Assembly (NCBI GenBank): GCA_030064835.1
Contig: JASJEE010000002.1
Location: 1-64,000 of the forward strand
Direction: 5' to 3'
Source of the DNA: Microcoleaceae cyanobacterium MO_207.B10
GTDB taxonomy: Bacteria; Cyanobacteriota; Cyanobacteriia; Cyanobacteriales; Microcoleaceae
Length of the DNA stretch: 64,000 nt
In this document: piece after piece, positions 8,298-61,388 of the stretch
Position numbering within the stretch: the stretch's first letter is position 1
How the letters are laid out: every line of letters starts with the position of its first letter
Notes under the pieces: generated by a model
The model's input: only the letters and a program-made list of their open reading frames with translations
Told to the model about the DNA's origin: nothing
Database searches by the model: none
Position numbers and translations under genes: made by a program

Positions 8298-8781
8298 AAC
8301 CTGGATATTTTATCGACAAAAAATTGTAGTGGACTGACACACCTTCCTTAAATGGTGCATTAGAAAATGGGGAGATGGGGAGATGGGGAGATGGGGGGAT
8401 GCGGTGTCAGTTATACAAAAACAGCTGCACAGTTTTAGCTGTGTCGGTCTACTAGAAACAAAAATCTATTTCTTTGTTTTTCCGATGATTTAACCACACC
8501 CCACACCCCACACCCCACACCCCACACCCAAGATTGATAATATTTGTAGCAAACATTGATCAATTTGGTATTATGAGGCACACAGCTAGCGGTCAAGATG
8601 CCCGCACTACAAGAGATTCAATTCATGCCTTGTACATCATAATCCCGAAGTATATGATAAATGATCAAACGCTTGACATCCTTGTTCTGTCAGGACTTTA
8701 AACTAAGATGCGTTTGCCCTGGTATCAACCCTAGTTTGATAGCGACTGGGTTAGTCAAAACTCAACGATAATCTCTATTTA
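8298..8781. other. Repeat-rich spacer
   Basis: No gene. Contents in order: a run of GGGGAGAT units (8369-8401); a partial reversed family B MITE (about 8441-8573) with about four CACCCCA heptamers in its centre (8502-8529); and a family D remnant (8572-8640, CTCATA/TGAGGCACAC...CGGTCAAGATGCCCGCAC). The rest is AT-rich. Confidence 0.55.
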
Positions 8782-9013
8782 AGGTTAGCTGAATAAAGCC
8801 AGGAGTTAGGATAGCTAAGGCTTCAGAGCTTTTTATCTTCAATTTATCTACTAGTTATTGGCCTCAAAATAGTGAAATTTGCTGCTGAAATTCCAGAAAA
8901 TTGATGCACATAAAATGCCCGAAACTGTCGCCTCTTCCCACCATCTCCGCGTCTGGTGCGTCTGGTGCGTCCCCGTGTCCTGCCCCTACCAACCAATTTT
9001 TTCAGCAGACCCT
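8782..9013. mobile_element. Family A MITE, copy 1, flanked by ATTTA
   Basis: Ends AGGTTAGCTGAATAAAG and TTTTTTCAGCAGACCCT are imperfect inverted repeats. The 5-bp ATTTA stands on both sides (8777-8781 and 9014-9018). The interior matches copies 20829-21071 and 60965-61176 along most of its length (GGATAGCTAAGGCTT, TTTTTATCTTCAATTTATCT, CCCCTACCAACCAATT). It has no ORF. Its right end overlaps the stop codon of the leftward gene at 9012. Confidence 0.85.
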
Positions 9014-20756: not shown

Positions 20757-20828
20757 AATTAGTTTATGTTAATGTTTCTGGGGCTTTAGTATTTGCATGA
20801 AAAACATCGTTTTTTTTGTTTTCTAATT

Positions 20829-21071
20829 AGGGTTTGCTGAATAAAGGTATAAGTTAGGATAGCTAAGGCTTTTAGAGCTTTTTATCTTCAATTTATCTCC
20901 TAGTTATTGGCTCTTATTGGCCTCAAAATACGAAAATCTTCTGCTGAAATTCAAGAAAATTTCTGCACATAAAATGGCCGAAACCATTGCCTGTTAACCC
21001 CATCTCCGCGTCTGGTGCGTCCCCCCGTCCCCGTGTCTTACCCCTATCAACCAATTTTTTCAGAAGACCCT
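20829..21071. mobile_element. Family A MITE, copy 2, flanked by AATT
   Basis: Begins AGGGTTTGCTGAATAAAGG and ends AATTTTTTCAGAAGACCCT; AATT stands directly before and after. The interior is shared with copy 1 along its length, including TCTCCGCGTCTGGTGCGTCC. No coding capacity. Confidence 0.85.
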
Positions 21072-21728
21072 AATTAGGGTTTGCCAAATAACTGTTTTTA
21101 TGGAGAGTAGGGACTATTTTCTACGGAATACTCTGCAAACGAGTTTGCGACAGCACGAAATCGCCTGTACAGGATTCATGGCAATTACAGCGGAAATAAG
21201 GAGAATAATCATCTGCTATTTTTAGCTTTTAGCCGCCAAAAACTTGTACTTTTTTGACATCAAAAATAGCATAGCCTTATCTATAAATGCTTTTAGATTT
21301 AATCACTATACTCTCATTAATTTGATTAATAAGTGTAAGTTTTGAGAAACATTTATTGATTTGTTTCCTGAATAATTTTTATGAAATTTAAGTAGGTTAT
21401 AGAGAACCTTAAAATTAGCAAAAATTTACACCTGTTGACAAGCAGTTTTGCTAATCAGTGGCGATCGCACTGAAAAATTTATAGGTATAACTACCCCTGA
21501 ATTTGTCCTAATTTACTCAACTTTTTTATATTTTTCTATTTAATTTACCATTTTTTTTCAAAACTGTCAATACTTTTCGTCAAAATATATTTAAATAGTG
21601 GGATTAATGATGTAGTATTTGAGTCTGAAGATAAATTTATAGCTTACCATATTTAAAATATTATGTCAAAAATTAAGTATATGAGACTTAGTAAGCGATA
21701 GTCCCGAAGACCTCTTAGCGATCGCTCT

Positions 21729-27785: not shown

Positions 27786-27899
27786 ATATCATGTCCGGTT
27801 GAATAGTTATAAATAAAGATCGAAGAGTCAGTAGTCAGGAGGGAAGAAGAGAATGAAAATGAGAAAGTTTTTTTATCACTAATTATCCGGACATAATAT
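27786..27899. mobile_element. Family H MITE, copy 1
   Basis: Ends ATATCATGTCCGGTTGAATAG and ATTATCCGGACATAATAT are imperfect inverted repeats. The same ends bound the insertion at 47729-47894 inside a broken gene. The interior has GTCAGGAGGGAAG. Confidence 0.75.
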
Positions 27900-28288
27900 T
27901 AACAGTTAATAGTTATAGAGTTTCCCAGACTAATGAGGTACAAATATCTTGATTTCTATTGTATTCCCAGATGCGTTGTTCCCGAAAACAAAGGAATGAG
28001 CATAGCAAACCCAATATAGGAATTGCTACGCGAAATAAATAATATTCACCTACAACCTACAACCTACAACCTGCCACCGACCCCAATCTCTCTATCAGAA
28101 AAAGGTTTCAGGAGTTGCTTATTAAGAGATAGCTTAAAATGGGAGGCTTTAGACAATAATTTTTCGGTAATTGAGAAATAATAAAAAATTACAGCTAAAG
28201 TTAACTTTCATAACCTTAGAAGTAATGATTCATAACTAATTGCTGATACTGACCGCTAATAGCTGAATGGTGACAAGCTGACAATAAG

Positions 28289-32234: not shown

Positions 32235-32555
32235 GGGGCTGTGGCTCAGATGGATAGAGCAAGCGCCTCCTGAAGTGTCGGGCACCATGTGAGGAAACTC
32301 TGTGAGTGAATGTGGTCAAACTCAAGGAAGCCTAAGTCTTAATATTGAAGGATATGGTAATCTTGAGCCAAGCTTTATCAACAAAGTTGGTAAAGAAGGT
32401 GCAGAGACTAGGTTTTAAGGGACAAGTAAGTTCTCCTTAAACATTAGGCCACCACCTAAAGCTATTGGAGCTATGGTGAAGGGATAGTCCAGAGAGTGGG
32501 GAAACTCACACAAATCTGAAGCGCTAGGTCGCCGGTTCGAATCCGGCCAGTCCCG
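32235..32555 (+). tRNA. tRNA-Arg(CCU), interrupted by a group I intron
   Basis: The 5' exon is 32235-32271 and the 3' exon 32519-32555, joining to a 74-nt tRNA. Acceptor arms GGGGCTG/CAGTCCC pair (one G-U) with discriminator G; D stem GCTC/GAGC; anticodon stem AGCGC/GCGCT; loop CT-CCT-AA with anticodon CCU; T arm GCCGG-TTCGAAT-CCGGC. CCA is not encoded. The intron follows the third anticodon base. No other tRNA was found in the window. TATACT at 32218-32223 is a possible -10. Confidence 0.95.
32272..32518 (+). ncRNA. Group I (IC3-like) self-splicing intron in tRNA-Arg
   Basis: 247 nt. Core elements are readable: ATGGTAATCTTGAGCCAAGC (P/Q region), GGTGCAGAGACTAGG (R, exact for tRNA introns) and AAGGGATAGTCCAGAG (S, forming P7 with R: GACTA/TAGTC). 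The 5' splice site follows a U (CCU), able to form a U-G pair in P1 with GGG about nine bases into the intron. The last base is G (omega-G) before AAGCGCT. No homing endonuclease ORF. Confidence 0.93.
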
Positions 32556-44610: not shown

Positions 44611-44796
44611 AGGTTCACTACGACGTTGGTGACTGCCAAAAATGTTTTTTTGACCTACAAATCAAAAAACATGGGAATTTAGATGTTCGAGTGGCAGTAA
44701 ACCGGGCTTGTACCCGGAAACTTAAAACTTGGGCCGAGATACCCACCTGGTATTTTCCAGGTCAAAAGCTGAGGCAAGACGGCGTTGCGGTGGACT
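44611..44796 (+). ncRNA. ssaA: 6S RNA
   Basis: About 186 nt. GTTCACTACGACG at the 5' end (44613-44625) pairs over 13 positions, with three G-U pairs and one mismatch, with CGTTGCGGTGGAC at the 3' end (44783-44795). Internal stems CCGGG/CCCGG and ACCTGG/CCAGGT are readable, as is GTTTTTTTGA/TCAAAAAAC. Position directly downstream of purK, length near 185 nt and rod-like pairing match cyanobacterial 6S RNA, which binds RNA polymerase by imitating an open promoter. No significant ORF should be called here. Confidence 0.88.
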
Positions 44797-44805
44797 ATTT
44801 TTTTT
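44783..44805 (+). terminator. 3' end / terminator of 6S RNA
   Basis: The 3' arm of the closing stem is followed by TATTTTTTTTT, a strong U-tract. The IS1 relic begins at once after this tract. Confidence 0.65.
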
Positions 44806-59805: not shown

Positions 59806-60966
59806 ATGCTTACAGCATCATTTTTTGTAATTACAATTGTCAGTTTAATGGCCGGAACAGGTTTTGCTTATTCCTTGTTTGCAAAACGATTAAAAAAGCA
59901 AAACAAATTTCATAATCAACAAATACTAGAAGCTCAGGAACGTATCTCCTATCTTCAGGAAAAAAATGAAAATTTACAACAGGAATATCAACAAGAAATT
60001 CAGGCGTTAGATATTCAAATTGCCAAATATATAGAGGAAATTAAACAAAAAAGCTTATTAGAAAACGACCTCAAAAATACTGTAGAAGAAATCGAAATAA
60101 ATATTTTCCTTGCCCATATACAAAATCAAAATAAAATTCAGGAACTAGAGCAACTTCATCAAGCAAATAAACAACAAGCAATTCAAAAATTAAAAGCTGA
60201 ATACCAGAAAAAACTGAGACATAAAATTGAATTGCAAAATCAATTAAAAACAAAGAATGAGCAACTACAAGGGAGTATTAAATCCTTAAAAGATAAATAT
60301 AAAAAACGGGTTAAGCAACTAGAAATAAGTTATCGGCAAAAGCAGGAAGAAGCAGTAAAATCTTTGAAACTAGAACATCAAAGTCATATCCAAAAATTAG
60401 AATCAATCCAGGCACAACTGCAACAGAAAAATCAGCTATTGAAAGATAAATATGAGCATGAATTAGCAGATAGGGAGCAAGTACATCAACAAAAAATAGA
60501 AAATATTAGTAAATATTGGCAAGCAGAATTTCAAAACAAAATTCAAGAGCTAGAGGCAGATAATTCTCAAAAAATCGAAGAAGTTGTTAAATCCTTAGAG
60601 AAAAATCATCGAATTCAAACTAAAAATTTAGAGTCTAATCACGATAAAAAGCTGCAAGATACAATTAAAGGATTAGAAAAAAAATATCAAACAAAGCTGA
60701 AAACTCAAATAAAAGAATTAGAAGAAATTCATCAAGAATCAATGCTTGAAACCATGATATCAATGACTAGTCAAAATCAGACTCAGTTAAAGCAAAAAAC
60801 TGAGCAACTGAAACAAACTTATGAGTTTCAACTCCAACAGACTGTGAAATCTCTTAAAGCTGAACATCAACGTCAAATTAAGCAACTTACTCAACAATTA
60901 GAGTTACATAATAATATTTCAGCATTAGATGTCTCCGGAAAAGAGGGAGCCAGGAGAAATAATTAG
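59806..60966 (+). CDS. Membrane-anchored coiled-coil protein
   Basis: A 386-aa protein with an N-terminal membrane helix (ASFFVITIVSLMAGTGFAYSLF) and then some 340 residues of nearly unbroken Gln/Lys/Glu-rich coiled coil, with a recurring motif VKSLKxEHQxxIKxLE (about residues 185, 260, 290, 345). No known domain. Could be a structural or tethering protein. The last 13 codons (after SALDV) and the TAG stop come from a family J repeat and the end of a family A MITE, so the natural C-terminus has been replaced. Confidence 0.8.
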   Translation: MLTASFFVITIVSLMAGTGFAYSLFAKRLKKQNKFHNQQILEAQERISYLQEKNENLQQEYQQEIQALDIQIAKYIEEIKQKSLLENDLKNTVEEIEINIFLAHIQNQNKIQELEQLHQANKQQAIQKLKAEYQKKLRHKIELQNQLKTKNEQLQGSIKSLKDKYKKRVKQLEISYRQKQEEAVKSLKLEHQSHIQKLESIQAQLQQKNQLLKDKYEHELADREQVHQQKIENISKYWQAEFQNKIQELEADNSQKIEEVVKSLEKNHRIQTKNLESNHDKKLQDTIKGLEKKYQTKLKTQIKELEEIHQESMLETMISMTSQNQTQLKQKTEQLKQTYEFQLQQTVKSLKAEHQRQIKQLTQQLELHNNISALDVSGKEGARRNN

Positions 60967-61231
60967 GGTATGCTGAAAAAATTGGTTGGTAGGGGTAGGA
61001 TATCGGGGGAACAGGCGACGGTTTCGGCAATTTTATGTGAAAAAATTTTCTTGAATTTCAGCATAAAATTTTAGTATTTTGAGGCTAATAAGAGCCAATA
61101 ACTAGGAGGTAAGTTGAAGATAAAAAGCTCTAAAAACCTTACCAATTATAAGTTTTAGCTTCATTCAGACAGCCATAATTAATATTTTATATATGATAAT
61201 TGACTTGATTTTTTATTATTAGAGATGTCTA
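60926..61231. repeat. Family J repeat, copy 4, split by a family A MITE
   Basis: Left part TAGATGTCTCCGGAAAAGAGGG to AAATAATT, right part AATTAATATTTTATATATGATAA to GAGATGTCTA. Removing 60965-61176 and one AATT restores a J element like those at 5080 and 31512. Confidence 0.8.
60965..61176. mobile_element. Family A MITE, copy 3, nested in family J
   Basis: Begins AGGGTATGCTGAAAAAATTGG and ends CTTCATTCAGACAGCCAT, flanked by AATT on both sides. Same orientation relative to the upstream gene as copy 1 has to its gene. The interior matches copies 1 and 2 (GGTTGGTAGGGGTAGGA; GGCTAATAAGAGCCAATAACTAGGAG). Confidence 0.85.
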
Positions 61232-61388
61232 TTAGATACTACTAATTATGCTCAAGTTAAACAAGTAAAAAAAACAGCAAATATATAGAGGATTCCAGCT
61301 TTTTTAGGTACAGGTTTTGCGGGCAAGATGCCCGCAGTACAAATATTCAATTGTTAATATCTGGACTTCATCTACTAGGAATTCAGTA
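61232..61388. other. Spacer with family D fragment
   Basis: Contains GCGGGCAAGATGCCCGCAGTAC (61319-61340), a hairpin piece of family D. No gene. Confidence 0.5.

Follow-up and report, generated by a model that had tools for sequence, protein, structure and literature searches.

Two MITE families inserted one within the other at the 3' end of a cyanobacterial coiled-coil gene, the second without effect on the protein

The window, a stretch of 64,000 nucleotides, comes from the genome of a filamentous cyanobacterium related to Okeania. It contains a coiled-coil gene whose product matched no family in a Pfam search. The gene stands in a conserved order (aminotransferase, acylphosphatase, coiled-coil gene and a convergent S1-type protease with a TPR-like tail), and its orthologues are found in two related genera, g7 and g8, most of them Okeania-type. 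Its 3' end runs into a copy of one repeat, family J, which is itself interrupted by a copy of another, family A (Table 1). An Rfam search gave no match at the locus. Elsewhere in the window there are a Group I intron (32259–32511; RF00028, 68.1 bits) and a 6S RNA (44612–44797; RF00013, 111 bits).

Table 1. Features of the coiled-coil locus and further family A copies, in window coordinates (TIR, terminal inverted repeat; TSD, target site duplication)
Feature	Position	Strand	Basis
Coiled-coil gene, 386 aa, N-terminal hydrophobic segment	59806..60966	+	ORF
Left 3-bp J target duplication, ATT	60924..60926	.	sequence; family TSD
Left part of J MITE, TIR AGATGTCTCC (family AGACATCTCC), through left TAATTA	60927..60965	+	alignment
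Left 6-bp A target duplication TAATTA, J sequence before insertion	60960..60965	.	alignment
Stop codon TAG, TSD TA plus first G of A; TAA in J-only reconstruction	60964..60966	+	
Family A MITE at the gene, 210 bp, left TIR GGGTATGCTGAA, right end degenerate (TTCAGACAGCCA)	60966..61175	+	alignment
Right 6-bp A target duplication, TAATTA	61176..61181	.	sequence
Right part of J MITE, end GAGATGTCT	61182..61230	+	alignment
Right 3-bp J target duplication, ATT	61231..61233	.	sequence
Predicted former CDS end (ATTAGATACTACTAATTATGCTC... to TATAG), in frame without J and A	61234..61284	+	reconstruction, weak
Second family A copy, TSD TAAATA, native stop TAG retained	8776..9012	-	alignment, empty-site reading
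Third family A copy in the window	20824..21076	-	alignment

Family J is a MITE family. An alignment of 28 sequences with 60-base flanks has sharp ends, AGACATCTCC ... GGAGATGTCT, which form terminal inverted repeats, and the flanks are all different. The copies are short, about 88–105 bp and up to about 150 bp, and carry no transposase gene; at least 41 further matches are present in this genome, counted within the 40 places scored. Among the 28 copies with identical flanking triplets the TSD is AAT in 14 and ATT in 12, the rest being AGG or TTA. Length differences between copies are multiples of a 7-bp unit, GGGAGYA, and each unit shifts the reading frame through the element by one base. The RNA fold of the consensus pairs its TIRs (z = -2.95), as is expected because they are inverted repeats. 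Among 62 genomes of the taxonomic family, J was found only in this genome and in g7 and g8.

Family A is also a MITE family. Aligned with their flanks, 38 copies have sharp ends, with GGGTCTGCTGAAAAAATTGGTTGG at the start and TTCAGCCAGCCC at the end; their interior includes a variable, GC-rich stretch, and the terminal inverted repeats are imperfect (GGGTCTGCTGAA ... TTCAGCCAGCCC). The multiple copies, mostly 200–260 bp and without a transposase gene, number at least about 40 scored among 253 first-look candidates in this genome, and no open reading frame was seen in the one at the coiled-coil gene. That copy matched itself with an E-value of 6.5e-158 and, among the matches listed, 39 other elements with values of 1.6e-71 to 8e-41, which excludes chance similarity. 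The RNA folding of A alone is unremarkable (z = -1.84). Across the 62 genomes, well-conserved family A copies are confined to this genome, g7 and g8; g5 has one weak partial match. For the tests below, family A was pooled with a related set that has GGGTTTGCTGAAAAAG starts and common ends and target. This A-type set comprises 95 non-redundant elements from this genome and relatives with matching 6-bp flanks, one mismatch allowed; the copies examined are part of the total, the genome itself being a draft that is 83% complete. The A-type TSD is a 6-bp TANNTA, with an exact pair in 75 of the 95 elements; the TANNTA form was itself part of their selection, and the unselected 38-copy alignment gives the same pattern. 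Most are TAATTA, TATTTA, TACTTA, TAAATA or TAGTTA.

At the coiled-coil gene, J spans 60927–61230 and is interrupted by A between two copies of TAATTA, a sequence internal to J. After removal of A and one TAATTA, the J halves align to the family end to end. As A interrupts J and J interrupts the reading frame, the order is gene, then J, then A. The original prediction had proposed both the nesting and this order; the first is borne out by the ends and TSDs of both elements, and the second by the interrupted J copy and the reading frame. It had also seen AATT on both sides of A. A duplication is indeed present, but AATT is only the core of the 6-bp TAATTA. Could the nesting have arisen from misassembly or as a repeat chimera? 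The draft assembly consists of 465 contigs and many contig ends lie within A-type elements, yet both target duplications are intact and site-specific, and the flanks keep the conserved gene order from aminotransferase and acylphosphatase through the coiled-coil gene to the protease, which leaves an artefact highly improbable. Nesting of the two families occurs both ways and is uncommon. Only one of the 95 A-type elements, that at the gene, restores a J copy across the joint on removal. The reverse was seen in a single case (L064), where a J copy lies within a 327-bp A-type element.

Three reading frames were reconstructed in silico: the present gene, the gene with J only, and the empty site. 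The present gene ends in ...SALDVSGKEGARRNN* (longer: ...LELHNNISALDVSGKEGARRNN, TAG), of which the last 12 residues (DVSGKEGARRNN) are encoded by J. The J-only frame has residues identical to these, followed by TAA. The empty-site frame ends in ...SALDTTNYAQVKQVKKTANI* (longer: ...LELHNNISALDTTNYAQVKQVKKTANI, TAG) and would give 391 residues. The new C-terminal tail is supplied by J, not by A, and the reconstruction in this respect agrees with the earlier view of a J-encoded C-terminus. The J family stop in this frame is TGA; in the copy at the gene, a G to A variant within the target has made it TAA.

Alignment with ten relatives shows conservation up to about ...QRQIKQLTQ, some 10–11 residues upstream of the J site, and the relatives' proteins terminate right at the end of this conserved block (RELMQ, LTNLD, LTELD). 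The J site therefore lies in a lineage-specific tail and no conserved part was lost. What the tail was before J is predicted from the empty site. Its 18-codon extension is open by chance in 25% of shuffled flanks (P = 0.25), so the former tail is best regarded as putative, and alignment with relatives gave no homologue of it. Alternatively, the gene's own stop, at or before the J site, may have been lost by point mutation, in which case J replaced nothing and translation simply entered it. The compared orthologues, ending at least 10 residues before the J site or just beyond the conserved part (LTNLD*, RELMQ*), and the unconserved nature of the former tail would suit such a history. It is nevertheless unlikely, given that in the reconstructed empty site the frame is open across the J boundary and for 18 codons further, with no extra change needed.

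Replacement of a former tail by J, which we prefer, can also be set against the relatives. The present C-terminus might have recurred in genomes without J or A; it is absent from the relatives, which lack both at the site, and neither the present nor the reconstructed former tail was found in any that were compared. No J or A was found at the 3' end of the Okeania orthologues, and the J matches in those loci are kilobases away. No J-only or empty sister allele was found, the genus being represented by this one genome, and the nearest relative among the GTDB contigs and family genomes was at 40–50% identity.

The TAG at 60964–60966 includes the start of the MITE, as had been stated from the letters alone: it consists of TA from the TSD and the first G of A. 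It had been concluded from this that A ended the coiled-coil gene, and that a second gene was ended in the same way at 9012. Neither conclusion survives excision of the element. At the coiled-coil gene the excised sequence has TAA at the same codon. Since the J-only allele already stops there, the end of the gene was not created by A; the insertion of A in J is neutral for the protein and changes TAA to TAG only. At 9012, on the minus strand, A follows a gene with the same geometry, and the excised sequence again reads TAG at the same codon (AGT AAA TAG). Both genes keep a stop at the same position without A, and both insertions therefore hit existing stop codons. Rebuilding the empty site thus reverses the account in which the element ends the gene: the stop predates the element.

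Both ends of every A-type element were scanned, in three frames inward, for ORFs with at least 90 codons upstream. Such ORFs reach an element in 18 cases, though perhaps not all of the smaller ones (99, 110 and 140 codons) are genes. In seven the stop is the first target codon, a TAA or TAG within TANNTA that is preserved by the duplication, and in 11 it lies at the junction TA/G. The remaining two frames, in which the left end would supply TGA at +8 and TAG at +24, account for none of the 18 stops. Equal shares of the frames should be seen if coding-end insertions were kept regardless of frame; a one-frame outcome at ten independent sites has a chance of (1/3)^10, or about 2e-5. Among the 11 junction cases, the empty site stops at the same codon in seven, two (L227 and L235) abut another GGG element that confounds the empty-site stop, and two (L215 and L175) are true truncations that cost about 6 and 32 codons. 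L215 and L227 represent one gene in two genomes. The shortened proteins of L215 and L175 show that A-type neutrality is not universal.

A-type elements occupy stop codons about four times above expectation. The sequences had been obtained around elements, but the background of 219,537 bases was drawn from the window, the J loci and the single-end loci after removal of the elements. TANNTA sites were counted as tolerated if they fell in no ORF or hit a stop codon in either harmless register. There, 40 of 1033 tolerated sites are on a stop (3.9%), against 10 of the 58 A-type elements in tolerated sites of this genome (17%, p = 7e-5). With relatives added, some of whose elements are shared by descent, the count is 14/90 (p = 1e-5). 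The earlier suggestion to test whether A forms TAG more often than chance is borne out in part, by this over-representation of stop sites; the TAG itself is present at every intact A end, as follows from a TANNTA target and a GGG start of the element. It is the TANNTA target, together with a GGG start that regenerates TAG, that causes the stop-site pattern. More generally, of 167 element sides 116 are turned towards a gene 3' end and 51 towards a 5' end, and the 72 two-sided A-type cases include 37 in convergent and 5 in divergent context. The stop-codon sites are therefore partly the extreme of a general 3'-end preference. Because insertions within genes are nearly absent, selection after insertion is a simpler assumption than target choice, and we infer that the enrichment at stops reflects tolerance by selection.

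A preferred orientation of A after genes had also been raised, and the evidence for A-type elements at gene 3' ends, from several tests without correction, is only suggestive. Within 10 bp of a gene 3' end, the pooled elements present 15 left and 4 right ends (p = 0.019, uncorrected), but the excess is 8 versus 3 in this genome alone (p = 0.23). Between co-directional genes there are 22 left and 8 right ends (p = 0.016, uncorrected; 17 versus 5 in this genome, p = 0.017). The effect is absent from the Okeania set over all flanks (26 versus 25), and family A by itself gives p = 0.09. A stronger proposal would make A ends selected stop cassettes, with three-frame stops and a preferred orientation that ended the genes they entered, including the coiled-coil gene. 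The left end does close three frames within 27 bases (TAG, TGA, TAG) and the excess of 15 versus 4 points the same way. Against this, the stops at 60964 and 9012 persist without A, the other two stop frames end no observed gene, and the orientation effect shrinks in this genome and in family A alone, all of which makes the cassette very unlikely. Less remote, though doubtful, is that A-type MITEs exploit stops as harmless landing sites, the TANNTA/GGG match and the orientation being favoured by selection on the element.

We give a probability of about 0.88 to the reading that two unrelated MITE families, J and then the stop-neutral A, inserted successively at the 3' end of the coiled-coil gene. 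J, probably moved by an IS5-like transposase, inserted at an ATT eleven residues past the conserved part, and would have put 12 J-encoded residues and a stop within J in place of a predicted, unconserved tail of 18 residues. Later, A inserted at the TAATTA within J that overlapped the J-supplied TAA stop, and its GGG start, with the duplicated TA, turned TAA into TAG and left the protein the same. In general, a stop that spans the last two target bases and the next base, whether TAA or TAG, would be rewritten as TAG, and one at the start of TANNTA would be duplicated intact; in either case an A-type insertion on a stop codon should therefore cost the protein nothing.

MITEs at gene 3' ends are already known; families A and J and the stop-regenerating target are new. 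QMITE1 and QMITE2 of Coxiella burnetii are described as reaching a few bases into functional genes at their 3' ends, and EnhC carries a MITE-encoded C-terminal extension (PMC5896051). They are MITEs at gene 3' ends like A and J, a likeness of description and not of sequence. They differ in that their insertion differences are given as indels and variable direct repeats, and a stop-regenerating target was not found in the available parts of that paper (PMC5896051). Nor was one found in the parts available of the wider literature on MITEs at stop codons, where 3'-end insertions are described. All affected annotated functional genes of Coxiella have the insertion at the 3' end, a preference for which the account gives no reason (PMC5896051). 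A target that overlaps stops, with an element end that restores them, is a countable reason for MITE clustering at gene 3' ends, and the A-type target offers it in concrete form for some bacterial MITEs.

Other systems resemble single aspects of the locus. Nezha and the type II MITEs of Anabaena sp. 90 are reported as multi-copy short elements with TIRs that lie for the most part between genes, while some disrupt genes (PMC3542288; PMC10969869); Nezha is likened to A and J by description, not by TIR or TSD. The Anabaena sp. 90 MITEs are described as having no IS with matching ends (PMC3542288), whereas J has a candidate IS partner. The pneumococcal RUP, BOX and SPRITE elements are reviewed as inserting into each other (PMC10969869), which resembles the nesting of A in J.

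The one candidate for an autonomous IS with J ends is an IS-like element of 1158 bp (L252:1286-2443), with J-type ends and the TSD ATT on both sides. Its transposase, with HTH_Tnp_4 and DDE_Tnp_4 domains, is like those of IS5-like insertion sequences in its domains, and differs in that the gene is broken into two frames. J is probably a MITE of the L252-type element, which is the probable source of its mobility. For A, a non-exhaustive search of all fetched loci for matching ends 550–3200 bp apart, including the PF01609 and PF13701 transposase loci of three genomes, found no autonomous partner, which would be an IS with GGGTNTGCTGAA ends and a 6-bp TANNTA TSD. Candidate end pairs were composite or without an ORF and were rejected; one further pair (L124) encloses a TnpB-like gene but has non-identical TSDs, and was taken for an IS200/605-type insertion nested in an element.

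A-type ends can be amplified in tandem. Five A left ends, matched over about 37 bp, lie in tandem at 98–100 bp spacing at G013:C112:56581-57014, and several A right ends stand 86 or more bases apart in G034:C321 and C401.

In one relative (L017, G012:C340) short repeats of the GAAGGCAGAAGGCAGAAGG type follow an orthologue of the coiled-coil gene that stops early (KTKHH*), a further C-terminus of this gene altered by repeats. A third repeat family, about 170 bp with ends TATCATGTCCGG ... CTGGACATGATA and very many copies, begins at the stop codon of the orthologue in two g7 genomes (L010, G006:C203:37689-37857; L011, G027:C20:195615-195747). Independent repeats have thus hit the same gene end in separate lineages, as is expected of a convergent, unconserved 3' end. 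First-look candidates of this third family number more than 1400 in each g7 genome, and a copy in the present genome lies at 27786–27902 of the window.
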